Shown piece by piece: positions 1,076 to 33,344 of a stretch of 40,802 bases of DNA (position 1 is the first letter of the stretch; the number at the start of each line of letters is the position of its first letter). The notes under the pieces were generated by a model. It was given only the letters and a program-made list of their open reading frames with translations, ran no database searches and was not told the origin of the DNA. This DNA comes from a virus, in IMG/VR virus record IMGVR_UViG_3300033996_000289, positions 1 through 40,802 of that record; one strand, written 5' to 3'. The translations under genes were made by a program, and so were the position numbers.

Positions 1076-2901
1076 TATTTGAATTTTCCTTGGTTGACAC
1101 CGCGGGTGTATGCACGCTCAATAGCTGCAATAGCGTCATTTGTCATGATGTATTTGCCAGAACTGTCACGCTTCAACGCGGACGGGTTCAGGCCAACGTA
1201 ATCGCGTAGCAGCTCCTGACGTACATTGACAGGAATGTCGTCGTATTTCTTGACGATGAAGTTAGCGCCTGGTTTGATATTCGCATCTGTCGCTATTTCA
1301 TAACCGCGCTTCTTGCTTTGGAAGAACCCAAAGAAACCAGATCCCTGCTCGATGCCTTCGCGCAGCATCGACATGCCTATGCGCTTGGCTTCGTCATCGG
1401 TCAGTGGCTTGCCTTTTTCTTTGGTTGCCTGGTCCAATGCTTGAGTCAGAGCGCCCATGAACTGTTGCGTTTTCTGCGCTTGCGGCGTTCCCTCTTTGGG
1501 CGTCATGTCAATGCCGGCAGCGGCAACTTCCGACTTGATCAACGTCAATGTTTGCTTGATCACACGCGACGATTCCATCGCTTTGACGTCGTTCTTATTG
1601 ATGCCGCCTTGTATGTCGATCAGCCCTTCCATCTGGCTTTTCGACATGTACGGTGCAAACTTGCGCAGATCAAGTGAAGTAAATGCAGCGGGGTCGTCCA
1701 TCGCCATGCGACGCAAACCGTAGTATTGATCGAGGCCATAGTTGCCGCCCTGCTCTGCCTCTGATTTGGCTTGACGTCGTTTTGCGTCAATCCAATCGTT
1801 GATTTGCCGCAGCTCTTCTGGATTAGTTTCAAGCAGTTGTGTCTGCAGCGTGGTCGGCATTCTCTTACCCTGCAACACGTAGCCCCATGCCTCGTTGCCT
1901 ATTTTCTTGTTCTGCAGCTCCTTAATTGCTTGCTGCTCTTGGGCAAACGACTTCAAACGCAATACCACCGCGTCTTCTTCTTTGCCTGACAACATGTCGC
2001 GAGCCATGGAAATCGCACCAGCAAGGTCACCCTTTGACGAAACCCAGAATTTGTCCGCAAACCCCTGCGTCTTGGCCTCGAACGTGCCGACGTCCAGCGC
2101 CTTGTCGATCTGGTTTAATTGATCAGGCGAAATCTCTGGCCGAAATTTTTTGAGGTAGTCGCGTGCAAAATCGAGCTGGTCATTGTTGATTGCACTGCTC
2201 AAAACCTTGGTGTGCAGCGCGGTGTTCGCTTCGCGCATCAGCGACTTGTATTGCTCCGACTTGGTGTCGACGTTGCCTTCGCGGTCGACGATACCTTGCA
2301 GGCGCGCAATGTTGCCGACTTCTATTTCCATGGCCAGCTTGCGCTCGTCATAAATGCCGCCGCGCACCTTGTAGCTGGGAGCGTTGTCGATGGCGTCCAT
2401 CATTAAATTCGATACCCGGTCTTTGCTTTCAGTCAGGTTCCACTGCTGCAGCTCCTTGAGCTGGTGTTGATTCATGCTGGCCCGTGCTGCCTGCAGCCGG
2501 CGTTCAGCAACCTGGCCGTACATTTTGCGCTGCATGTCGTTTTCCAAGCCGTCCATCTGACTGGCCACGTACTTGGTCAAATCGTCATCAACCGCTTTGT
2601 AGCCGTTAATTGCATCCTGCCCTTTGGTAAACAGATAGTCGGTCTGCTTTTTGCGGATGTATTCAGCGGTCGAGTTGTCAAACTTTTTTGTGTTGGCTTC
2701 GTCGATGGTGTCCTGGATACGCTCGGCAATTTTGATGACGGCCGAACCAGAATTGATCATGGCCGCGCCAAGCGCCTCGGCTTGTTTGCCGGTGTAGTCC
2801 GGGCCCTGCTGAACTGCGGGTGCCGCGACCTCGGGCGCGACAAAACGGCCCATCGGGTTTGCGTTAAGGTCAACGCTTGGGTCCATCGGTACAGTTGCCA
2901 T
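1075..2901 (-). CDS. Internal virion protein, T7 gp15-like position
   Basis: This is a 608-aa hydrophilic protein, largely alanine-, glutamine- and charge-rich and apparently mostly helical, with no signal peptide or membrane segment. It lies directly after a gp14-like gene and directly before the giant protein, the order of T7 genes 14-15-16, whose products form the internal core and are ejected into the host envelope. Its ATG at 2901 overlaps the stop of the upstream gene, and its own stop overlaps the giant gene's ATG, so the three are one translational unit. No catalytic motif is visible. Similar long helical proteins are common in podoviruses at this place. The assignment as a DNA-injection protein rests on order, size and composition. 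Confidence 0.65.
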   Translation of the reverse strand: MATVPMDPSVDLNANPMGRFVAPEVAAPAVQQGPDYTGKQAEALGAAMINSGSAVIKIAERIQDTIDEANTKKFDNSTAEYIRKKQTDYLFTKGQDAINGYKAVDDDLTKYVASQMDGLENDMQRKMYGQVAERRLQAARASMNQHQLKELQQWNLTESKDRVSNLMMDAIDNAPSYKVRGGIYDERKLAMEIEVGNIARLQGIVDREGNVDTKSEQYKSLMREANTALHTKVLSSAINNDQLDFARDYLKKFRPEISPDQLNQIDKALDVGTFEAKTQGFADKFWVSSKGDLAGAISMARDMLSGKEEDAVVLRLKSFAQEQQAIKELQNKKIGNEAWGYVLQGKRMPTTLQTQLLETNPEELRQINDWIDAKRRQAKSEAEQGGNYGLDQYYGLRRMAMDDPAAFTSLDLRKFAPYMSKSQMEGLIDIQGGINKNDVKAMESSRVIKQTLTLIKSEVAAAGIDMTPKEGTPQAQKTQQFMGALTQALDQATKEKGKPLTDDEAKRIGMSMLREGIEQGSGFFGFFQSKKRGYEIATDANIKPGANFIVKKYDDIPVNVRQELLRDYVGLNPSALKRDSSGKYIMTNDAIAAIERAYTRGVNQGKFK

Positions 2902-18952: not shown

Positions 18953-19763
18953 TTTGCAATTTCCTTTCGTCTCCAAAGATTGTCCTGGCTGCTGCCAGGG
19001 TTGCGGCTTGCGCGTGCGTCATCCGCCCAGGGCCGTTGCCGCCGTTGCCAGTCCTGGCCATCTCGTTGGTTAGCCACTTGGCCTCGAACCCACCCCAGCT
19101 TTTTTTGACGCAGTACTCGATCGCGTCAGGCAAAGACAGGTTGGCCTCGATTGCTTCCTTGGCAACCGCCTCAAATGCCCGTTCGGTGTGAACCAGCTTT
19201 TTGGCAAGCCTGACCTTCAACCAGTCTTCAGCAATGTCAACCGGTACACCGCGGTCGGTTAACCACTTGGCCGGTCTAAACTTCTCATGCTTAACTTTTT
19301 TGACGAGAGAGATCGGCGCGGTAGCGCCTATGTCTTTATCTTCTGTTTTCTGTTTTATGGTTTCTGTTTCTTGGTTTATGTTTGGTTGCACGTTCGTTGC
19401 TTTTGTGTTGAACGTCCGTTGAACAGACGTTGAACGGGCGTTGGCTCTCTTTTGAGCAGACAATTTGCCAGCCCTTGAAGCAGACTCCTGCTTGTCGTGG
19501 TACTTGGCAATCTCATCATCGGCCCGAGAGTGAGTCCAGCCGCGGCCTTCCACGTAAGTAAAGAACTCTTCAAGCACCGACTGCACGTCTTTTTCGTGCT
19601 TACGCATGTTGATCAAACGTGCAACGGTCGTTGAACACTCGTTCAACGGTTGTTCATGCAGGTAATACAGGTCTAAAAGTCGGCGATAAGCGAGATCTTC
19701 CATCTCCGACAGGTGTCGGGTGTGGCTGGCGTAGTCGCCAATGTTAAAAGAGTAGTAGTGCAT
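18882..19763 (-). CDS. DUF1376 replication initiator-type protein
   Basis: This 293-aa protein opens MHYYSFNIGDYASHTRHLSE, continuing EMEDLAYRRLLDLYYLHE, the standard DUF1376 domain (about residues 1-90), a winged-helix-like module of phage replisome organisers. A charged, polar linker (100-150) follows. The C-terminal half (FRPAKWLTDRGVPVDIAEDWLKVR ... SWGGFEAKWL) matches DnaT-like primosomal C-domains. Together this is the likely origin-binding and primosome-recruiting protein, equivalent to lambda O. The ATG at 19763 overlaps the upstream stop (GTGATG) with GGGGGAGC as ribosome binding site. Confidence 0.78.
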   Translation of the reverse strand: MHYYSFNIGDYASHTRHLSEMEDLAYRRLLDLYYLHEQPLNECSTTVARLINMRKHEKDVQSVLEEFFTYVEGRGWTHSRADDEIAKYHDKQESASRAGKLSAQKRANARSTSVQRTFNTKATNVQPNINQETETIKQKTEDKDIGATAPISLVKKVKHEKFRPAKWLTDRGVPVDIAEDWLKVRLAKKLVHTERAFEAVAKEAIEANLSLPDAIEYCVKKSWGGFEAKWLTNEMARTGNGGNGPGRMTHAQAATLAAARTIFGDERKLQNGQSHIIDVTPTSVAGFLDSEDL

Positions 19764-19969
19764 CACGCTCCCCCTTTGGCAAGTTTGAGCAATGCCTTGA
19801 TCTTCTCCCTGTTTTTTCTCATGCCTTCACGCGCACGAGCGCCAGAGCATTCCACGCAGGTTCCGTTGATCGTGTAGCGACGAGTGGTGCCGCAGTTCTT
19901 GCAGGGCGTACCATCGAACGTAGTTTCACCTTCTCTTGCTGCAGCCAGTCTGATGGTGTTGATTGACAC
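19763..19969 (-). CDS. Small zinc-ribbon protein, first gene of the replication operon
   Basis: This 68-aa protein starts at GTG 19969 (MSINTIRLAAAREGET), with AAGGAGGGCCAT upstream at ideal spacing; an ATG 2 nt away is out of frame. CKNC (23-26) and CVEC (38-41) around TTRRYTINGT form a zinc ribbon of the type seen in small phage and HNH-related proteins. The C-terminus is a basic helix (REGMRKNREKIKALLKLAKGG). It lies ~20 nt after a strong sigma-70 promoter and immediately before the DUF1376 gene, so it is expressed early. Confidence 0.75.
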   Translation of the reverse strand: MSINTIRLAAAREGETTFDGTPCKNCGTTRRYTINGTCVECSGARAREGMRKNREKIKALLKLAKGGA

Positions 19970-19984: not shown

Positions 19985-20007
19985 GGTTATTTGTACAAAC
20001 AATAACC
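19985..20007 (-). promoter_or_regulatory. Operator-like inverted repeat over the -10 box
   Basis: GGTTATT (19985-19991) and AATAACC (20001-20007) form a perfect 7-bp inverted repeat across 9 nt, with an inner TTGTACAA dyad. The repeat overlaps the -10 box of the minus-strand promoter, so a bound dimer should repress it. The Cro-like HTH protein at 21076-21309 is the obvious candidate binder (inference). Confidence 0.65.
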
Positions 20008-20027
20008 GGCATGGGAACCAGTGTCAA
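19999..20027 (-). promoter_or_regulatory. Strong sigma-70 promoter for the replication operon
   Basis: On the minus strand TTGACA (20027-20022, 6/6) and TATTGT (20004-19999, 4/6) are exactly 17 nt apart. Transcription would begin near 19992, about 22 nt before the GTG start of the zinc-ribbon gene. Confidence 0.75.
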
Positions 20028-20247
20028 CAAAATAATTTGATCCGGGCGGGTGCCCGTCTTTCCGGGCTGTCCACCAGGTCACCGCCTTCGTGAAGGGAGG
20101 AGCGCGGCCCTGGCTGCCGGAGTTAGCAGGAGAAACCGAGCAAAACCTGCGCCACTACCGGCTGGGCTCGGTGAGGGGTACTCGCTGCACTGGCTCTATC
20201 CTTGACGACTTGTTGTCGACAAACCAGCATCCGCTTTCCCCCGGGGA
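20028..20247. other. Gene-free, GC-rich structured region (possible replication origin or non-coding RNA)
   Basis: These 220 bp between two genes of the early minus-strand block hold no credible reading frame. They contain many inverted repeats: CGGGC/GCCCG (20043-20056), CCTTC/GAAGG (20085-20096), GCAGG/CCTGC (20126-20150), ACCGAGC/GCTCGGT (20135-20171), and the perfect palindrome TTGTCGACAA (20213-20222), which itself lies in a larger imperfect hairpin from 20202. The clustering beside the promoter of the DUF1376 replication gene suggests an origin, a structured RNA or a regulatory leader. No known RNA family or tRNA is recognised. Confidence 0.5.
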
Positions 20248-20427
20248 TTAGTGTACGTCGACTTGCTCTGCGGCGTGATCCTTCTGCGCCTCGATGGCGT
20301 GGCTTGCCATAGTCTGCAGCTTGGTCATCAGCAAGTTGACCTGGTCGTACGGCAGCTTCGACAGTGCGTAGAGAATGACGTTGACCTCTTCAACGAACAG
20401 CGTCATCGGTAGTGGTTTACTTTCCAT
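20248..20427 (-). CDS. Small hypothetical protein
   Basis: This 59-aa protein starts MESKPLPMTLFVEEVNVILY and is amphipathic-helical (ALSKLPYDQVNLLMTKLQTM) with a histidine/acidic tail (EAQKDHAAEQVDVH). GAGAGGCAATC gives a ribosome binding site. The pattern EVN-IL-AL-KLPY-QV--L---L is of a kind common in small phage proteins of unknown role. It lies between the SSB-like gene and the structured gene-free region. Confidence 0.65.
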   Translation of the reverse strand: MESKPLPMTLFVEEVNVILYALSKLPYDQVNLLMTKLQTMASHAIEAQKDHAAEQVDVH

Positions 20428-25722: not shown

Positions 25723-26315
25723 GTTGCCCTCTCCTTAAGTACTGCAATCATTCTTCTTTTTTTAGCCTGCGCTATTTTCATCTGACGCAAATCTTCTGCT
25801 TGCGCTTCCTTCTGTTCTTTCAAAATCTGCTCGCGCATCTTATCGAAACGCGTCCACAAATCAGTCAACTCTGGCGGCACTTTGTACACGAGCTGCTCGC
25901 GTATCTCTGCCTGCAACTGCTGCAGCCTGGTGCGAACCAGCACGCGCTGCAACGCTCGCCTGGAAAGTGACACATCGCCCTTGTATACCTTTTTGGCGTT
26001 GCTCTCCTCTTCCCAAAACAACTGCTCAATCGCGTCATACGCATCGAAGAACGCACCGAGCTGCTCGCCAATATGGCTGATCACATCGGTCGGATCTTTC
26101 TTTGCTACCTCCTGGACCCGTTGTACCTCTTCGTTAAACTGCCGCTTCTCTTCTACTGTCGGCGGGTGTGGCTTTGCTGCAAACTGCTCTTTAAGATCAT
26201 CGATTACTTCTTTGACGTTGCCGGCTGTGGACTTGACTTCCTTATAAAGCTCGATCCCCTTTTTCGCCAAACCGATGGCCGTGTTGGCCGCGGCGAGTAA
26301 GGTGAACGGGTCCAC
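25632..26315 (-). CDS. Helical protein with C-terminal membrane anchor
   Basis: This 227-aa protein starts at GTG 26315 (MDPFTLLAAANTAIGLAKKG), with GAGGTAAT upstream. Residues 1-200 are a long helical, strongly charged region (EVIDDLKEQFAAKP, EEKRQFNEEVQRVQEVAKKD, RRALQRVLVRTRLQQLQAEI). A single span lies near the C-terminus (WFGAVTFVILWAIYLLVLI, about 198-216) with a short basic tail. Similar proteins occur in aquatic phages between tail fibre and lysis genes. It might be an ejected or membrane-associated virion protein or part of lysis; unassigned. Confidence 0.6.
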   Translation of the reverse strand: MDPFTLLAAANTAIGLAKKGIELYKEVKSTAGNVKEVIDDLKEQFAAKPHPPTVEEKRQFNEEVQRVQEVAKKDPTDVISHIGEQLGAFFDAYDAIEQLFWEEESNAKKVYKGDVSLSRRALQRVLVRTRLQQLQAEIREQLVYKVPPELTDLWTRFDKMREQILKEQKEAQAEDLRQMKIAQAKKRRMIAVLKERATWFGAVTFVILWAIYLLVLIRTSHSYRSLY

Positions 26316-26316
26316 A

Positions 26317-26622
26317 TTACCTCGGTCCGCCCAGGCCCAGCTTCGCCATCAGGCCGGTCACTATGATCCCGATCAAGATGATGATGCCGCCCCATATCCC
26401 CTTCTTCGCAATGTCAAGTTTAAGCTCGCGCCAGAATTCTGTCTGTGCTTTCGCTGCTCTAATCATCTCTTCGTGATACTGACGATGACCAGAAAAGTCC
26501 ACGCTGCCATCGTCGTTCTTGGCAAACGCTCCGTTTATTTTTTGGAGCTCTTCCATTATTTGATCGAATCGTTTGTCCAGGTGTTCGTTGTCGTCCTGGG
26601 TCAAATTGCTGTTGCCTTGCAT
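26317..26622 (-). CDS. Small protein with C-terminal membrane span
   Basis: This 101-aa protein starts MQGNSNLTQDDNEHLDKRFD: a soluble helical part (ELQKINGAFAKNDDGSVDFS, HEEMIRAAKAQTEFWRELK) and a final hydrophobic span (KKGIWGGIIILIGIIVTGLMAKLG, 73-96). This shape (soluble domain, KKG-WG span, glycine end) is common in small phage lysis-region proteins. Its stop TAA precedes the GTG of the next gene by 1 nt. Possible holin accessory; not certain. Confidence 0.6.
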   Translation of the reverse strand: MQGNSNLTQDDNEHLDKRFDQIMEELQKINGAFAKNDDGSVDFSGHRQYHEEMIRAAKAQTEFWRELKLDIAKKGIWGGIIILIGIIVTGLMAKLGLGGPR

Positions 26623-26636
26623 TTATTATCGCCCTA

Positions 26637-26993
26637 TCAAACATTGACAACCCAATTCTGACTCGCTTCATCCCAGCTATACCGTTGGTCATCAGTTGGC
26701 ATCGGCACAGGCGGCTGCCAGTTGGCATCATCGTCAAGCGTCCAGCTTTGATAAGGCTGCGGTGGAATGAACGCATCGCGTACGGCGTTGTAGGTGTAGC
26801 CAATGCCTGCGTAGTGCTTGCGGAAGTTGCCGTTGTAGCTGGTCTGCTTCCATGTTCCACCGAACAATCGTTCGCAGAAGGCTGCGCCGATGTGTTCCTT
26901 CTCAACGCCTGCTGCGTCGCTGGTGTCCTTGTTGTCCACCACGATCACGCGCAGCACGATGTTGTTGCTGTCAATCTCTGCAAAGTGCGCCAT
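26637..26993 (-). CDS. Conserved-type aquatic-phage protein
   Basis: This 118-aa protein starts MAHFAEIDSNNIVLRVIVVD. The pattern (MAHFA-ID--N-V--VIVVDN, then FCERLFGGTWKQTSYNGNFR, KHYAGIGYTYNAVRDAFIPP, QPYQSWTLDDDANWQPPVP) is one I associate with a small protein found in many marine and freshwater phages near tail-fibre genes. It is rich in aromatic residues (W, Y), like a carbohydrate-binding or protein-interacting beta-domain. Its function is unknown. A role with the adhesins upstream is possible. Confidence 0.7.
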   Translation of the reverse strand: MAHFAEIDSNNIVLRVIVVDNKDTSDAAGVEKEHIGAAFCERLFGGTWKQTSYNGNFRKHYAGIGYTYNAVRDAFIPPQPYQSWTLDDDANWQPPVPMPTDDQRYSWDEASQNWVVNV

Positions 26994-27596
26994 TCAAGCC
27001 TCCAGTTTTAATCCAGTCAAACTTAACTCATCGCCAACGACACCGACGGGGAACGTGTTGAACGACATACTGATGCGGACATCGTCACCCTGAACCGTCG
27101 GCACGTTATGCTCAAGCGATGAAGGAAACAGAATCAACCGCCCAGTGATGGCTTCAAACCACCATGACTCGGAGTTGTACGAATTCCAGTTCTCGGGCGG
27201 GAACTTAATTTGCTGCCAGCCAGAGCGATAGAAATATATGCGGTCATCAGGGTTGGTGTTTAGGTAGAACACGCCAGACACAAAGCTGTTCGGATGCGCG
27301 TGCTTGTGATGCCATTGGCCCTGCTCGGAATAGTTTAACCACGATTGAGTGATTCGCAAGTCAACCTCATGCTTCGGGTCGCTAGTCGCTTTGAAGTATT
27401 CGGCAACGCAGCCCTCTACCCAATCCCGCAAGGAAGTCATTACCTGTTCGCGCAGCACAAAGTTGTTGACGCTGGTGGTGTTGCCTTCATTTGCCCGTGT
27501 TTCCTGTCCGCGCACGAACAGCATTTCCTCATCCGTCAGTAAACGGTCAAGGTCAAACATCCCGATAGGTGTCGGAAATAGGTTGTGCATATTCAT
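26994..27596 (-). CDS. 2-oxoglutarate/Fe(II)-dependent oxygenase (TIGR02466-like)
   Basis: This is a 200-aa protein beginning MNMHNLFPTPIGMFDLDRLL, the opening typical of this phage family (LFPTPI). The metal region WHHKHAHPNSFVSGVFYLN (95-113) supplies histidines H97/H99/H101, and H163 (SSLEHNVPTV) would be the distal ligand; R174 in DDVRISMSFNT is the likely 2-oxoglutarate-binding arginine. I see the family pattern, not the exact ligand set. The gene sits between the glycine-rich adhesin and the lysis genes, so a protein substrate such as an adhesin is one possibility. Phage members have no settled substrate that I know of. Confidence 0.78.
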   Translation of the reverse strand: MNMHNLFPTPIGMFDLDRLLTDEEMLFVRGQETRANEGNTTSVNNFVLREQVMTSLRDWVEGCVAEYFKATSDPKHEVDLRITQSWLNYSEQGQWHHKHAHPNSFVSGVFYLNTNPDDRIYFYRSGWQQIKFPPENWNSYNSESWWFEAITGRLILFPSSLEHNVPTVQGDDVRISMSFNTFPVGVVGDELSLTGLKLEA

Positions 27597-27847
27597 GCGA
27601 TTGCGTCCTCTATTTCTTTGACCTGCGCGTTCATGGCTTCAAGTTGCTCTGGCAAGTAAATGGTCGGGATGCTGTCCTCAAACTCTTTAATCTTGTCCAT
27701 CACCCAGTAAACCTCCTCAATGCTAGGACAAGGGCGAGAATCTTCCCAACGGGTAAAGACACCATTGCTGATTTCCCATTTAGCACCCGGACGCAGCATT
27801 TGCATTGCTACGTCAATGCCAAAGAAGCGGTAGATTTTTGTGTTCAT
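27593..27847 (-). CDS. Small protein, possible tail-fibre assembly factor
   Basis: This 84-aa protein starts MNTKIYRFFGIDVAMQMLRP. The pattern FGIDVAMQMLRPGAKWEISN, followed by VFTRWEDSRPCPSIEEVYWV, is one seen in small aquatic-phage proteins beside the 2OG oxygenase gene. The C-terminus is an amphipathic helix (LPEQLEAMNAQVKEIEDA). Immediately downstream of an adhesin gene, an assembly or chaperone role is plausible but unproven. Its stop overlaps the oxygenase start. Confidence 0.55.
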   Translation of the reverse strand: MNTKIYRFFGIDVAMQMLRPGAKWEISNGVFTRWEDSRPCPSIEEVYWVMDKIKEFEDSIPTIYLPEQLEAMNAQVKEIEDAIA

Positions 27848-27849
27848 AA

Positions 27850-29427
27850 TTATTGATTGAGTTTAATGATTACGATGCCAGAGCCGCCGTTTCCTCCAGA
27901 AAAATTTCCACCAGCGCTGGCAGTTGCTCCACCACCACCATTACCAGTGTTTGCCGAAGCGGATGTTCCATTACCTTGTCCAGCACCACTTTCAGTGTAT
28001 CTTCCACCTGCTCCACCTGCTGAATATGTAACTGATGAACCAGAAATGGATGATGCGGTTCCTGCCCCTCCGCTTCCACCTCCACCGCTTGTGCCATCAG
28101 AGCCTACGGCGCTTGAACCACCGCCACCACCAGAACCATAACTTGGCGCCGAACTATTTCCAGCACCACCATCATTTCCTTGTGAGGGTGTTTGGTTAGG
28201 TGTATTGCCATTTCCTTTTGCGCCTCCAAAACCCGCGCCGCCGCCGCCAGAGCCGCCATTTGCACCAGCAGCTCCCCCTGTTGGGCCGCTCGTTCCCCCG
28301 CCACCACCGCCAGCAGAAGTAATGGTGCTAAATACGGAATTTGAACCGTTTAATGCAGACCCTCCGGTATTATTTGCTCCAGCACCACCAGCCCCAACGG
28401 TAATTGTGTATTCAGTTCCTCCAGTAACAGAAAGCCCTGTGCCTGTGCGATAGCCTCCCGCGCCACCACCACCACCAACTTGACCACCTCCTGCCGCGCC
28501 ACCAGCCACGACCAAATAATCCACGCTGGTCACACCAGTCGGAGCAACCCACCTAGTCGATGACTTAAAGGTAAAGACAGTCTGCGATGCGACGGTGTAT
28601 TTCAGGATGACGATACCGGAACCGCCTGCACCGCTTGTATAAGCAGAAGTAGGATGATTTCCTGCGCCTCCACCGCCACCACCACCTGTATTTGCAGTTC
28701 CATCTACCGGAGTTAAAGTACCCCCACCTCGACCACCACCGCCTGTGCCTCCTGCACCACCAGTACCAGAAGCAGGGGATGGATAACCAGCACCGCCACC
28801 ACCACCGCCTGCATAGGTTACGGATGAGCCTGAAATCGTTGATGCGGTTCCATTGCCGCCAGTACCACCCGTATTTGTAGCTGGAGCCGCGCTTCCAACA
28901 GCACTAGCACCACCGCCGCCACCGCCAGCGCCGCCCCAACTTATTGTGTCATCTGCGCCATTACCTCCAGCACTTCCTTGGGACGGACTAGTTGATGGTG
29001 TGTTGCCTGCGCCACCTGTTGTAGCAGCACCGCCGCCGCCACCGCCGCCGGAACCGCCAGCAGTTCCGTTCGTACTCCAATAACCACCGCCGCCGCCACC
29101 GTTGGCTGTAATGGTAGAAAAAACAGAATTTGACCCAGCAGTTCCGCTGTTTGTACCACCGACAGCAGCGCCGCCCCCACCAACAGTTACTGTGTAATCT
29201 GTGCCAGCGGTTACTGACAGACCTGTGCCAGTTCTATATCCACCAGCACCGCCGCCACCACCTCGGTCTGCACCACCAGCAGCACCACCTGCGACAACAA
29301 GGTACTCAACCTCGGTCACGCCAGTAGGTGCAGTCCAAGTGCCAGTTGCGGTAAAGGTCTGAACAACAGTAAACGTGCCGCCGCCAGCAGCAAGCCTGCC
29401 CAACAGCATAGCCATAATGCCACTCAT
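27850..29427 (-). CDS. Glycine-rich adhesin with two tandem modules
   Basis: This is a 525-aa protein composed mostly of glycine, alanine, serine and threonine. Two modules of about 260 residues repeat. Each opens with a short beta-part (TGTWTAPTGVTEVEYLVVAGG, and STRWVAPTGVTSVDYLVVAG) and is followed by polyglycine stretches (GGGGGAGGYRTGTGLSVTAG in both) that end with SGIVILKY or SGIVIIKL. The layout is like glycine-rich phage adhesins with polyglycine II helix bundles (compare gp38-type tips), which determine receptor specificity. DNA of the two copies differs widely at third positions, so the duplication is old. Its start overlaps the upstream stop by 4 nt. Confidence 0.75.
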   Translation of the reverse strand: MSGIMAMLLGRLAAGGGTFTVVQTFTATGTWTAPTGVTEVEYLVVAGGAAGGADRGGGGGAGGYRTGTGLSVTAGTDYTVTVGGGGAAVGGTNSGTAGSNSVFSTITANGGGGGGYWSTNGTAGGSGGGGGGGAATTGGAGNTPSTSPSQGSAGGNGADDTISWGGAGGGGGGASAVGSAAPATNTGGTGGNGTASTISGSSVTYAGGGGGGAGYPSPASGTGGAGGTGGGGRGGGTLTPVDGTANTGGGGGGGAGNHPTSAYTSGAGGSGIVILKYTVASQTVFTFKSSTRWVAPTGVTSVDYLVVAGGAAGGGQVGGGGGAGGYRTGTGLSVTGGTEYTITVGAGGAGANNTGGSALNGSNSVFSTITSAGGGGGGTSGPTGGAAGANGGSGGGGAGFGGAKGNGNTPNQTPSQGNDGGAGNSSAPSYGSGGGGGSSAVGSDGTSGGGGSGGAGTASSISGSSVTYSAGGAGGRYTESGAGQGNGTSASANTGNGGGGATASAGGNFSGGNGGSGIVIIKLNQ

Positions 29428-30446
29428 GACACGTTTCCTGTAACGACGCAGACTGTGCCGCTGATAAACAGAATCGTCGCAACGCCTCTGGTTGCCAATG
29501 TCATCGTGTCCTTGTCCGTATTCGTGCCTGCGATGTAGGCCGTGGTGATCGAACAGGTGATCGTGATGTTGCCGGTCGTGTTGTTGAAGATCGACACGAT
29601 GTCGCCAGCAGCGAAGGTCGAGTTCGGAATCGTGATCGACCCACCCGAACCAACGCCGACAAACTCACCGATGTCGGTGGTCGCCAAAGTGTATGAGCTA
29701 GTTTTGTCAGATCCTGACTGTGGAACATTAAGATAGCCAAGCGTATAGTTGGCGCCACCATCAGGAATCGTGACTGTTCTGCTTGCGCTCAACGTGGCAG
29801 GCGTTAACGTCACCGCATACGAACTGGTGCCACCAGCTCGGCCTGCAATCACCACTGCATCCTGCGTTGACGCGGCCTCTGACCGGATTGCGTTTGCAGC
29901 TCTGAATGTCTGCGCAGCGGTAAAGGTATTTGACGTCGTAGGATCTACAGGACCGGTATCGCCTTTGGCTGCCAGCACTTGCCAGTACGCCGTTGCTGTC
30001 GTCGGGTTTTGGTTTGTGCTTGCTTGGATTGCCAGGTAGCTGGTGCCGCTGACGGTGACCACATCGTTGACCGCATACGTGGACCCGGATGACCAGGCGC
30101 CGCGTGGCGTAAAGCCAACCGCTGCAGGCGTGGCCGAGTTTTCATACACACCGTAGTCGGTAACGATCGAGCTGTTGGCCGAGGCTGACGCGATGATCTT
30201 GTCACCGACCGCCATGTTCATTGGCTTGGGCCAGTTGTACGTCGAGTTAGCAGCAATAGACAGCGCAGCTACCAATTGGGTAGTCGCGCCTGTCGAGGCA
30301 ATGTATCGCTTTATCGAGATTGTGATTGCGCCGGCAGTGACGTTAGAGAACACCAGGGCGTGGACGCTGGCCTCCTGCGTTGCTGGGCAGACATAGACAT
30401 CTTGGTCGGATGTCGTCAGTACAAGTGGTTTACCTTTGAGTGCCAT
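29424..30446 (-). CDS. Tail-fibre/baseplate-like protein with carbohydrate-binding module
   Basis: This is a 340-aa protein. The N-terminal ~110 residues look like a small beta-sandwich attachment domain (LVLTTSDQDVYVCPATQEAS, HALVFSNVTAGAITISIKRY). A CBM5/12-like module follows at about 118-150: GAWSSGSTYAVNDVVTVSG, then TSYLAIQASTNQNPTT and YWQVL (the W--G--Y--GD-V pattern). A short collagen-like stretch KGDTG leads into a C-terminal beta-rich domain (YTLATTDIGEFVGVGSGGSI ... TRGVATILFISGTVCVVTG). The protein is likely a receptor-binding or fibre-connecting protein. Confidence 0.65.
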   Translation of the reverse strand: MALKGKPLVLTTSDQDVYVCPATQEASVHALVFSNVTAGAITISIKRYIASTGATTQLVAALSIAANSTYNWPKPMNMAVGDKIIASASANSSIVTDYGVYENSATPAAVGFTPRGAWSSGSTYAVNDVVTVSGTSYLAIQASTNQNPTTATAYWQVLAAKGDTGPVDPTTSNTFTAAQTFRAANAIRSEAASTQDAVVIAGRAGGTSSYAVTLTPATLSASRTVTIPDGGANYTLGYLNVPQSGSDKTSSYTLATTDIGEFVGVGSGGSITIPNSTFAAGDIVSIFNNTTGNITITCSITTAYIAGTNTDKDTMTLATRGVATILFISGTVCVVTGNVS

Positions 30447-30449
30447 AAA

Positions 30450-33344
30450 TTAACCCCCGAAAACTAATGCCATCGCGACTGGGTCGGCGACGGTTTGCCA
30501 GGACGGCGCGGAACTAGATCCGTTTGAAGTGAGCACCTGGCCGCTTGAGCCGTAATTGGCGCCATTGATACCCATTGCACCGCTGTCATTAAACACCTGG
30601 CGCAGATTGCCATCGCCATCTGACAGCACGATGTGGTTGCTAGACGTTCTGATGTCCAGACCGCCACCGTTGCCGCTATATGAACCGATGATGGTGTTGA
30701 GTGATCCGGTGGTAATTGCCGAACCTGCGCTGTAACCGATGACTGTGTTCCAGGTACCGGTTGTGCTGTTTAGCAAAGCGCCTGCACCCACTGCCACGTT
30801 CTGCTGGCCGGTTGTTGCAGCAACCAAAGCGTTGGCACCAATCGCTACGTTATACGAGCCGGTGGTTGCCACAAGCAGCGCAGATGAGCCCAGCGCGGTA
30901 TTTGATCCGCCGGTGGTGACGCCGCTCATCGAGCTGCGGCCGACTGCCGTGTTGTACGAGCCCGTGGTGTTGGCGTCCAGGGCATACGCGCCCACTGCAG
31001 TGTTCTGCGTACCGGTGGTGTTGGCAAACAGCACGTTGTTGCCCAAGCCAGTAATTTCGCCGGTCGTGGTATTGACGCCTGCGTAATTGCCGACCGCAGT
31101 GCTGTAGCTCGTGGTGACGCTGCTGTACAGCGCGTCGCTACCGATTGCTGTGTTGCCTGACCCGGTAGTGTTGAGCAGCAGGGCGCGTGTACCGATAGCC
31201 GTGTTGCGCTGGCCTGTGGTGTTTGCGTTCAGAGCTGATGCGCCGATGGCAATGTTGTAGTCGACGTTGCCCTGCGAATACATCGACTGCTCGCCGATGG
31301 CTACGTTGCCGACGCCAGTCGTGGCTCTGGCAGCGCCTGTGCCGATTGCAACATTGCTTGTGCCGACAGTGTTGGTTTCGAGAGCCGACACGCCGATTGC
31401 GATGTTGTTGCCGCCGGTAGTAAGCGCTTTACCCGCATCGAAACCGACAGCGACGTTGTCGTTTGCCGTGGTGTTTGCAGCAAGCGCGTTTCTGCCGATG
31501 GCCACGTTTTGGCCGCCGGTCGTGTTTGCCTGCAGTGCAGATACACCGAGGATCGTGTTGCTGTTGACGTTGCCGGTGCCGACCCTGACGCCGTTCACGG
31601 TGCCAAAGGTTACCGAGCTCGAGCTGCCCAGGCCCAGGTTTGTGCGTGCCGCTGATGTGCTTGCTACGTCAGACAGGTTGTTTGCAGCGGCCAAGAAGCC
31701 GGAGCCAGAGACGTACGCAGCGGTCCACACCGAACCGTCGTACACCTTCATAACGTCAGACGTGGTGTTGAAGTACAGGTCGCCTGCTTGCAGCGCTGTG
31801 CTGTCGTTTCTGGTCGATGGGTCGTTGGCTTTTGCTCCCTGATAAATGTCAGAGAACATCGTCAAATCGGTGATGTTGTCCGCCACAATCCCAACATCTA
31901 CGGCGACGCCTGCCACAGCGGTCACGTCAGCAGAGATGCCGGCCACCGTGTTGATGTTGGCCGCGTTGCTGTTGACCGTGTTGATTGCAGCCGACATGCC
32001 GGCAACCGTCGACACTGCAGCCGATATGCCAGCCACGGTGTTGACGTTCAAAATGTTGTTGCCTACGTTGTTGACGTTGGCAATGTTGGTCGCTACGGTG
32101 TCGATCTCTGACGTTGGTTCGTTCAGATCGTTGGCCACCGTCTGAATGTCTGCAATGTTGGTGGCGACCGTTGTCACGTTGGAAGAATTATTCGCAACCG
32201 TGGTGACGTTAGCGCTAATGCCTGCGACGGTGTTTATGTTTGCCGCGTTAGAGTTGACCGAAGTGATGGCCGCGCTCATGCCGGCAACGGTATTGACGTT
32301 GGCTATGTTGCCGCCGACTGCGTTGACGTTTGCAATGTTTGTTGAAACCGTCGTTATTTCAGTGGTTTTCGCAGCGACTGCATTGATGTTGGTCGAGTTA
32401 TTGTTGACCGAAATAACCGCACTGATGTTTGTACCAACCGCAGATACAGCAACCATATTGCCGGACACAGAAGTGACCGACGCCATGTTGTTCGACACGT
32501 TGGTTACAGCAGCCGCAGCAGCAGCAACGCTCGTCACGTCGCCCGATATACCGGCCACCGTTTGAATCTGGCTCGATATGTTGGCGACCGTTTGAATTCT
32601 GTTTGTCGGAGAAATCTGACCAGCAACAAGATTGATGTTTGTCGTTGATCCAGCTACCGTGTTGACGTTGGCAATATTGCCGCCAACATTATTGACGTTT
32701 GCAATATTCGTCGCGACTGTGTTGACGTTAGTCAATCCGCCAGCTACGGCGTTCACGTTCGCTATGGACCCGCCAACCGAATTGACGTTGGCTATATTTG
32801 TGCCGACCAGGTTGACGTTTGCGATGTTTGTCGCAACTGTGTTGACGTTTGCTATGCTGGCGGCAACCGTGTCGATGTTGTTGGCACTATCAGCGATCCT
32901 GATGATGTCCTCAACCAGCGCCTGCGAATCCGCGTCGCTTGTGATGGGCAGCTTGGCCGCACGGTCGACACCTTCCTGAAGCTGCTGAATCTGGATCGTT
33001 GCCCGGTCGAGCGCGTCGTTGATGACCTCCGGGTAAAAGCCGCCCTGGTTCGTCAGATCCGTCGGCTGCAGGTTGGACATGTCCGACGTGATCACCATGT
33101 TGTTGCCGGTGGCCAGTGCTGACGTAAGCACAACATTACCGCCCGGGCTGGTGTTCTGATCCGCGTTTAGCGAGACAGAATAATCCGTGCCAAGGACCAG
33201 AGTCGTCTCGACCTCGGTAGACGTGTTTACCCTGACGACCAACAGATCGGCAGCGGCAAAGACTTTGAACGTGAATGGAAAGGTGGTCGTTACGTTATTG
33301 CCGACGAACGGGCCTGCCTTTCGGGTATTGGAATTGATCGTCAT
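30450..33344 (-). CDS. Long tail fibre protein: T7 gp17-like N-domain, decapeptide repeats, YadA-head-like repeats
   Basis: This is a 964-aa protein. Residues 1-125 match the T7 gp17-type attachment domain (GNNVTTTFPFTFKVFAAADL, GTDYSVSL, and NMVITSDMSNLQPTDLTNQ). Residues ~153-494 are about 34 tandem decapeptide repeats of consensus IANVNTVAxN. A short region (YQGAKANDPSTRND ... LYFNTTSDVMKVYDGSVW) links to about 16 YadA/Hep_Hag-like head repeats (NVAIGxxALxxNTTG, 591-891). The end is a fibre C-terminal region (GSSGQVLTSNGSSSAPSW). It would trimerise, attach through the first domain to the tail and bind the receptor at the end. It follows regulatory site A. Confidence 0.85.
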   Translation of the reverse strand: MTINSNTRKAGPFVGNNVTTTFPFTFKVFAAADLLVVRVNTSTEVETTLVLGTDYSVSLNADQNTSPGGNVVLTSALATGNNMVITSDMSNLQPTDLTNQGGFYPEVINDALDRATIQIQQLQEGVDRAAKLPITSDADSQALVEDIIRIADSANNIDTVAASIANVNTVATNIANVNLVGTNIANVNSVGGSIANVNAVAGGLTNVNTVATNIANVNNVGGNIANVNTVAGSTTNINLVAGQISPTNRIQTVANISSQIQTVAGISGDVTSVAAAAAAVTNVSNNMASVTSVSGNMVAVSAVGTNISAVISVNNNSTNINAVAAKTTEITTVSTNIANVNAVGGNIANVNTVAGMSAAITSVNSNAANINTVAGISANVTTVANNSSNVTTVATNIADIQTVANDLNEPTSEIDTVATNIANVNNVGNNILNVNTVAGISAAVSTVAGMSAAINTVNSNAANINTVAGISADVTAVAGVAVDVGIVADNITDLTMFSDIYQGAKANDPSTRNDSTALQAGDLYFNTTSDVMKVYDGSVWTAAYVSGSGFLAAANNLSDVASTSAARTNLGLGSSSSVTFGTVNGVRVGTGNVNSNTILGVSALQANTTGGQNVAIGRNALAANTTANDNVAVGFDAGKALTTGGNNIAIGVSALETNTVGTSNVAIGTGAARATTGVGNVAIGEQSMYSQGNVDYNIAIGASALNANTTGQRNTAIGTRALLLNTTGSGNTAIGSDALYSSVTTSYSTAVGNYAGVNTTTGEITGLGNNVLFANTTGTQNTAVGAYALDANTTGSYNTAVGRSSMSGVTTGGSNTALGSSALLVATTGSYNVAIGANALVAATTGQQNVAVGAGALLNSTTGTWNTVIGYSAGSAITTGSLNTIIGSYSGNGGGLDIRTSSNHIVLSDGDGNLRQVFNDSGAMGINGANYGSSGQVLTSNGSSSAPSWQTVADPVAMALVFGG
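30670..31570 (-). repeat. YadA-head-like ~22-residue coding repeats in the tail fibre
   Basis: About 16 units of roughly 66 nt encode variants of NVAIGxxALxxNTTGxx. They resemble the left-handed beta-roll repeats of trimeric autotransporter head domains. The repeat number can change by recombination and alter fibre length. Confidence 0.75.
31862..32887 (-). repeat. About 34 tandem decapeptide coding repeats in the tail fibre
   Basis: A 30-nt period encodes 10-residue units of the form IANVNTVAxN; the first units (IANVNTVATN, IANVNLVGTN, IANVNSVGGS) are nearly identical, later ones drift. The period is 10 residues, not the 7 or 11 of simple coiled coils. This may form the fibre shaft. Confidence 0.75.

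Follow-up and report, generated by a model that had tools for sequence, protein, structure and literature searches.

A predicted modular RNA beside the replication genes of a virus ends in a hairpin that recurs across many bacterial phyla

Covariation among homologous loci shows that a gene-free stretch of a viral genome encodes, on the minus strand, a predicted structured RNA of modular build, in which all four modules (A, B, C and D, from 5' to 3') are supported by compensatory changes. The window analysed here is the whole virus record IMGVR_UViG_3300033996_000289, 40,802 bp long, and the stretch occupies positions 20028-20247. The RNA lies on the same strand as the flanking genes, and its set of modules in the window is among the fullest (Table 1). 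We propose, with a probability of about 0.36, that its function is that of a cis-acting boundary (intercistronic) element in polycistronic transcripts of phages.

Table 1. Positions of the RNA, its modules and the adjoining features in the window
Feature	Position	Strand	Description
Upstream 59-aa ORF	20248-20427	minus	No family matches
Structured RNA, modules A-B-C-D	20051-20245	minus	~195 nt; begins a few nt past the stop codon of the 59-aa ORF
Module A	20175-20242	minus	Hairpin closed by GGGG/CCCC; GAA and AGUA strands; stem CUGG/CCAG; apical CGAC/GUCG; conserved CGUCAAGGAUAG
Module B	20116-20167	minus	H-type pseudoknot; conserved GUGGC and AAC
Module B, helix a	20167-20165 / 20153-20151	minus	GCC / GGC; nearly invariant
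Module B, helix b	20162-20158 / 20120-20116	minus	GCCGG / CCGGC; covariation
Module C	20073-20114	minus	Helix GCCAGG/CCUGGU; GC / GUGA internal loop; inner helix CGC/GCG
Module D (tail hairpin)	20051-20071	minus	GACA-GCCCG-GAAAGA-CGGGC-A
Sigma-70-like promoter of the next gene	19999-20027	minus	TTGACA, 17, TATTGT; 3' of the RNA
Inverted repeat GGTTATT..AATAACC (GGTTATTGTTTGTACAAATAACC)	19985-20007	minus	Overlaps the -10 of the small-gene promoter
Downstream 68-aa ORF	19763-19969	minus	GTG start behind AAGGAGG; distant PHROGs match, endonuclease VII-like

Results

Locus and Conservation

The sequence-only reading had described positions 20028-20247 as free of genes, and no plausible gene does lie inside. 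The DUF1376 gene, whose protein matches primosomal and O-like initiation families, starts at 19766, which places it 262 bp from the region, with a small ORF intervening, rather than the 500 bp first given. Other minus-strand neighbours are Cro-like and RusA-like genes and one for a small protein with a DDNPF end that is likely SSB-like; RecE-like and RecT-like genes run in the opposite direction. The promoter said to adjoin the region is present, sigma-70-like and on the minus strand, but it faces away from the region and serves the next gene; the inverted repeat that overlaps it, whose bases differ in the related locus L002, is likely a repressor operator. No promoter was seen directly 5' of the RNA in the window, and just 3' of the element there is no convincing and no dedicated terminator.

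The repeats that first drew attention to the region are present (TTGTCGACAA at 20213-20222, ACCGAGC/GCTCGGT and GCAGG/CCTGC), but as a cluster they do not exceed expectation: arms of 5, 6 and 7 nt number 11, 2 and 1 against means of 13.8, 3.5 and 1.06 in 300 dinucleotide shuffles, and as many 6-nt arms occur in 67% of the 220-nt intervals of this genome. Folding energy is likewise ordinary (z = -0.40 for the plus strand and -1.09 for the minus strand). Because both repeats and folding are at chance level, the original finding could not stand alone. The TTGTCGACAA palindrome is not conserved, since L002, 97% identical, has TTGTCGACTA in its place; the small CGAC/GUCG hairpin that contains it is retained there. 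The other two pairs of arms exist but are mostly not the conserved helices, and ACCGAGC/GCTCGGT is mismatched in the relative L003 and overlaps a conserved helix of the pseudoknot. What distinguishes the region is conservation and covariation, which a reader of the single sequence could not see. On that evidence the suggestion of an uncharacterised structured RNA has held up, with strong minus-strand covariation, homologues elsewhere and no Rfam family at threshold.

Two viral contigs from one metagenome carry the element, and three distant relatives were reached via the flanking genes; a BLASTN search of phage and plasmid records with the region as query returned short pieces only and no homologue spanning the element. 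The RNA is 97.0% identical to L002, with 71.0% for the small downstream gene, 67.6% for the promoter stretch and 87.0% for DUF1376; relative to L003 the values are 79.2% for the RNA, 45.8% for the small downstream gene and 57.1% for DUF1376. The 59-aa ORF is 94.4% identical in DNA to L002 and 75.6% to L003. The upstream RusA and Cro-like genes (97.4% and 99.6% to L002) equal or exceed the RNA in conservation, so that the RNA also sits at a mosaic junction.

Covariation and Module Combinations

In alignment A1 (19 sequences, 24 pairs), 94.0% of cells are paired against 74.6% after shuffling, two-sided cell changes number 80 against 22.3, and the score is 0.499 against 0.145, slid versions reaching at most 0.066; the pairing of D and part of helices a and b is there by selection, because only candidates with a paired D stem and a CCYAGC..TGGY or GCCNAGCCGG core were admitted, and helix C lay outside these criteria. 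Its rows were hand-picked, mostly from 33 distinct candidates, with L331, L118 (no core) and near-duplicates dropped and L099 added. Eight of 18 sequences leave column pair 8-26 unpaired, and pairs 17-58 and 18-57 fail in 4/19 and 6/19, respectively, partly owing to a bulge in one group. The outer helix of module C is paired in 100% of cells, with two-sided changes in five of its six pairs, and its inner helix has such changes in three of four. Helix b of the pseudoknot shows 13 two-sided cell changes against 3.6 shuffled and a score of 0.356 against 0.112. For module A, alignment A2 (17 sequences, drawn from 44 distinct sequences with CGTCAAGGATAG, plus L288) gives 97.0% of cells paired, both sides changed in 8 of 12 pairs and a score of 0.476 against 0.215 shuffled, with L027 and L003 slightly misaligned and counted unchanged. 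A comparison of homologous regions, proposed at the outset as a check, supports base-paired helices.

The window contains the features that define the B-C-D family, namely the a/b pseudoknot, the C helix with its GC/GUGA loop, and GAC followed by the tail hairpin, and it scores 84.7 bits with the B-C-D covariance model, of whose seed it is a member. Outside the seed, the model matched 8 of 300 Burkholderiales genomes (E of 0.001 or better); the best match, at 51.6 bits, has a new helix b pairing, GUCGC/GCGAC (five alignments were inspected), and some of the weaker ones are probably driven by the tail. Loci with D only gave weak, D-driven full-length scores with model R1 and are not counted as B-C-D members.

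A second search pattern, built from the 5' module, matched 56 stretches. The modules are combined in several ways: A+B+C+D (the window, L003, L025, L054, L132 and others), B+C+D (L024, L037, L044, L071, L301 and others), A+D (L288, L291, L318) and A alone beside a start codon (L151, L154, L170 and others). Elsewhere D is exchanged for a different hairpin after the same GAC, for example GACCGC-CGUAA-GCGGUC (L157, L158, L160, L175, L353), so the tail position tolerates alternative loops. The genes downstream are unrelated between phages that carry the element. Where module A stands alone, it lies within ~10 nt of the start codon of an MSKLNRQRG... protein that lacks an obvious Shine-Dalgarno sequence (L151, L154, L170, L173, L179).

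Spread and Placement of the Tail Hairpin

At least 120 viral contigs contain the tail 19-mer ACAGCCCGGAAAGACGGGC, and many of them have the upstream core in common. Module D has the general form UGACA-stem-G[GAAAGA]C-stem. With TGACA, GGAAAGAC and the final A fixed and the stem positions left free, 84 of 118 examined matches are fully complementary, compared with a shuffled mean of 14.3; these 84 stems are of 29 kinds, 16 with at least one G-U pair. Of 1172 GAAAGA occurrences among the collected loci, a stem closes 184 (126 of which contain the 19-mer used as query), compared with 0.9-3.4% for rearranged letters, and 39 of the other 58 come after TGAC. The exact D 22-mer is present in 41 bacterial genomes or MAGs, with ~0.03 chance matches expected (an estimate for a stated 257 Gb); the genome titles include Proteobacteria, Bacteroidota, Clostridia, Spirochaetes and Gastranaerophilales, and also Planctomycetia, Lentisphaerae, Kiritimatiellae, Verrucomicrobia and Ignavibacteria. 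Isolated phages with the 22-mer include Bacteroides phage BS-TP2 and Stenotrophomonas phage BUCT708, and near matches were found in phiEt88 and FoX2. Two small Burkholderiales genomes (L356, L357) have a T run directly after a D-type hairpin, which could there be a terminator itself. The D loop GGAAAGAC also equals 23S rRNA 2056-2063, a stretch close to the peptidyl transferase centre, which may be a coincidence; the rRNA sequence is that of positions 2054-2068 in the accessible text of one paper (PMC12887398).

The placement of D was examined on 218 distinct hairpins, from loci found mostly with D-based or A-based patterns, with the opposite strand or shifted positions as controls. A T-arm follows D within 400 nt in 51/218 and precedes it in 43/218, the opposite strand giving 0 and 0. 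ARAGORN places 41 same-strand tRNAs within 600 nt downstream, 19 of which start at 2-8 nt, and no opposite-strand tRNA in that range. By crude ORF rules, 55 of 212 D hairpins have a Shine-Dalgarno sequence and a start codon no more than 100 nt away (27 of 395 at control positions), the shortest distance being 17 nt; a further 40/212, apart from these 55, have a T-arm within 150 nt downstream, and 117/212 have neither. D is thus often immediately 5' of the next same-strand unit, be it a tRNA, a tRNA-like gene or a ribosome-binding site. Terminator-like sites follow D in 25/212 against 23/378 shifted controls, a modest, about twofold difference. Same-strand runs average 2.46 genes upstream and 2.96 downstream of D (P = 0.19, 90 loci), which gives no significant operon-start bias in a count that uses the same crude gene calls and omits 32 of 122 hairpins located within called ORFs of 100 aa or more.

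In L097, L126, L200 and L233, very short tRNA-like structures lie directly 3' of D, with an acceptor stem and a T-arm and no normal anticodon arm. In an E. coli prophage, D stands in a 1-kb ORF-free leader after the repressor gene, and in a plasmid-borne Klebsiella prophage it stands in a 490-nt ORF-free leader in the same position, with five GGAAAGAC motifs and terminator-like hairpins. Long ORF-free leaders after a repressor gene were seen in L237 (3850-4360), L236 (6540-7590) and L142 (2350-3050), where GGAAAGAC hairpins or variants accompany embedded terminator-like hairpins. BUCT708 has a promoter-like sequence just upstream of D; in FoX2 and 035JT001, D lies past the final gene of a same-strand run.

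Comparison with Known RNAs

At threshold, Rfam gives no family in the window and none at the element in the related loci scanned: 17 loci yielded tRNAs only, outside the element, and 8 further loci one hammerhead II, also outside. Among the closest known RNAs is Proteo-phage-1 (RF03044), named as a phage RNA, whose whole model is matched on the right strand by the core CCCAGCC...AAC-CCGGCAGCC; however, the window scores 15.9 bits (E = 1.9), far under the gathering score of 42, the aligned model has no D hairpin, and in eight other B-core loci (L149 in a looser form) no match appeared at E up to 10. In the Burkholderiales genome L353, a hammerhead ribozyme of type II, which scores 57.6 bits against a gathering score of 37, shares its strand with a B-C type element and lies ~315 nt to the 3' side of it (1111-1185 and 1501-1597, minus strand).

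ROOL and GOLLD are hundreds of nucleotides long and are characterised by a homo-oligomeric RNA cage. The accessible text of one account describes them as elaborate phage and prophage RNAs, commonly near tRNAs, of unknown function (PMC12286853). The present RNA differs in consisting of short exchangeable modules in series, and neither family was matched at its gathering score in the window, the 17 loci or the 8 further loci. The put RNA of phage HK022 has a two-hairpin structure. The accessible part of its source describes it as a structured RNA that acts in cis, is ~70 nt long and follows early phage promoters (PMC9378689). D has a comparable leader position in the two prophages, but nearness to operon starts is not general for D, and HK022 26000-31500, compared for D-type hairpins only, has no GAAAGA hairpin. 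STAXI, which the accessible text of PMC2864571 describes as a repeated pseudoknot whose neighbouring genes encode proteins that handle DNA (integrases and single-stranded-DNA-binding proteins, for example), and the radC motif are both sub-threshold or absent on the window and the element. One contig (L269) has a radC RNA match of 29 bits (gathering 40) at 385-571 on the minus strand, together with a B-C-D element away from it. We found no account of Proteo-phage-1 or of the hairpin CCCGGAAAGACGGG in the literature searched, and none of this element in the accessible main-text passages, those of PMC8040213, PMC11109978 and PMC8632094 among them.

Discussion

The structured RNA would belong to the early transcript, that of the replication genes, in a tailed phage. 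It would fold while the polycistronic transcript emerges and, once folded, would set the upstream message apart from the downstream unit; the junction would be cleaved by RNase P before a tRNA and by another endonuclease elsewhere, and the compact D-capped structure would guard the new 3' end against exonucleases and leave the next start unpaired. That the GAAAGA loop and the UGAC linker are invariant implies a partner conserved throughout bacteria, which would recognise the element or serve as its docking site, and the unrelated genes that follow the element in different phages argue against gene-specific regulation. Several points count against a boundary function: 117 of the 212 D hairpins have neither a T-arm nor a good start close downstream, a promoter stands between the RNA and the next gene in the window, so that cleavage of the junction would be unneeded there, the terminator-like sites after D fit control of termination too, and the complexity of the pseudoknot exceeds what a plain 3' shield needs. 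For D taken by itself, we give a little under even odds to its being a near-universal viral RNA element that controls transcript junctions and is read by a bacteria-wide machine (RNA polymerase, the ribosome or RNase P); phages of many phyla would use it by itself or combine it with pluggable modules, namely the pseudoknot and the GAA/AGUA hairpin.

The main rival to the boundary function is RNA antitermination of the HK022 put kind, in which the nascent RNA would bind host RNA polymerase and lead to read-through of terminators in early operons and untranslated tRNA arrays. We regard this as rather unlikely, yet the leaders of the E. coli and Klebsiella prophages make its best case, and it is mainly on their account that the boundary function is held to 0.36. 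In lambdoid phages the nutL/putL site lies just after the repressor gene. D occupies that place in both prophages, in leaders without ORFs whose terminator-like hairpins precede the first gene; in BUCT708 it is close downstream of the promoter-like sequence, terminator-like sites are about twice as frequent after D, and a conserved polymerase would suit its spread over phyla. Against this stand the lack of a clear operon-start placement (P = 0.19 in 90 loci, with crude gene calls), the position of D after the last same-strand gene in FoX2 and 035JT001, the HK022 segment without a hairpin of the D kind, and the want of a convincing terminator just past the element in the window. Less probable again is a stable RNA that acts in trans, frequently shares a transcript with phage tRNAs, and serves as decoy or sponge, the target being a host factor or a defence nuclease directed at RNA. 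Its GAA/AGUA strands in module A, which we take to be those of sarcin-ricin-like loops, resemble parts of the translation apparatus, and aberrant or minimal tRNA-like structures adjoin D; the GGAAAGAC identity with 23S rRNA 2056-2063 (PMC12887398, partial text) points the same way, if it is not chance, as do ROOL and GOLLD, which likewise occur in phages near tRNAs and have no known function according to the accessible text (PMC12286853). The short gap to the next gene or tRNA suggests action in cis, however, and in the window the RNA has neither a promoter just 5' nor a dedicated terminator.

A translational cis-regulator or riboswitch of the downstream gene would fit the frequent position of D directly 5' of a ribosome-binding site and the lone module A within ~10 nt of a start codon (L151, L154 and L170, for example); we consider it improbable, given that the downstream genes differ and are unrelated between phages, that in the window a separate promoter, 3' of the RNA, serves the next gene, and that tRNAs are preceded by D as well. 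A replication origin, which the sequence-only reading had offered, or another DNA-level element would fit the location inside the replication operon and the palindrome, but now seems very improbable. The base pairs, G-U included, are kept by compensatory changes as in an RNA, the orientation is fixed relative to tRNAs, and relatives of the element occur in unrelated, non-replication gene settings. There is no skew switch at 20 kb, and 20028-20247 holds no DnaA-box match, DnaA-box-like sites being at chance level and elsewhere. The region was accordingly rejected as an origin in favour of repeats in the DUF1376 gene: four of the five copies of CGTTGAAC in the window lie inside this O-like gene, and blocks with 11-bp start-to-start spacing (19384-19453 and 19596-19654) make it the better candidate for an origin with iterons.

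That a hairpin with an invariant loop stands at gene and tRNA starts in phages of many phyla suggests contact with conserved host machinery, an interaction that has seemingly gone uncatalogued. Because D is short, self-contained and easily placed in a reporter, the role of structured phage RNAs near tRNAs becomes testable, and the pseudoknot family, with its covariance support, offers a practical model for annotating the non-coding parts of phage genomes.
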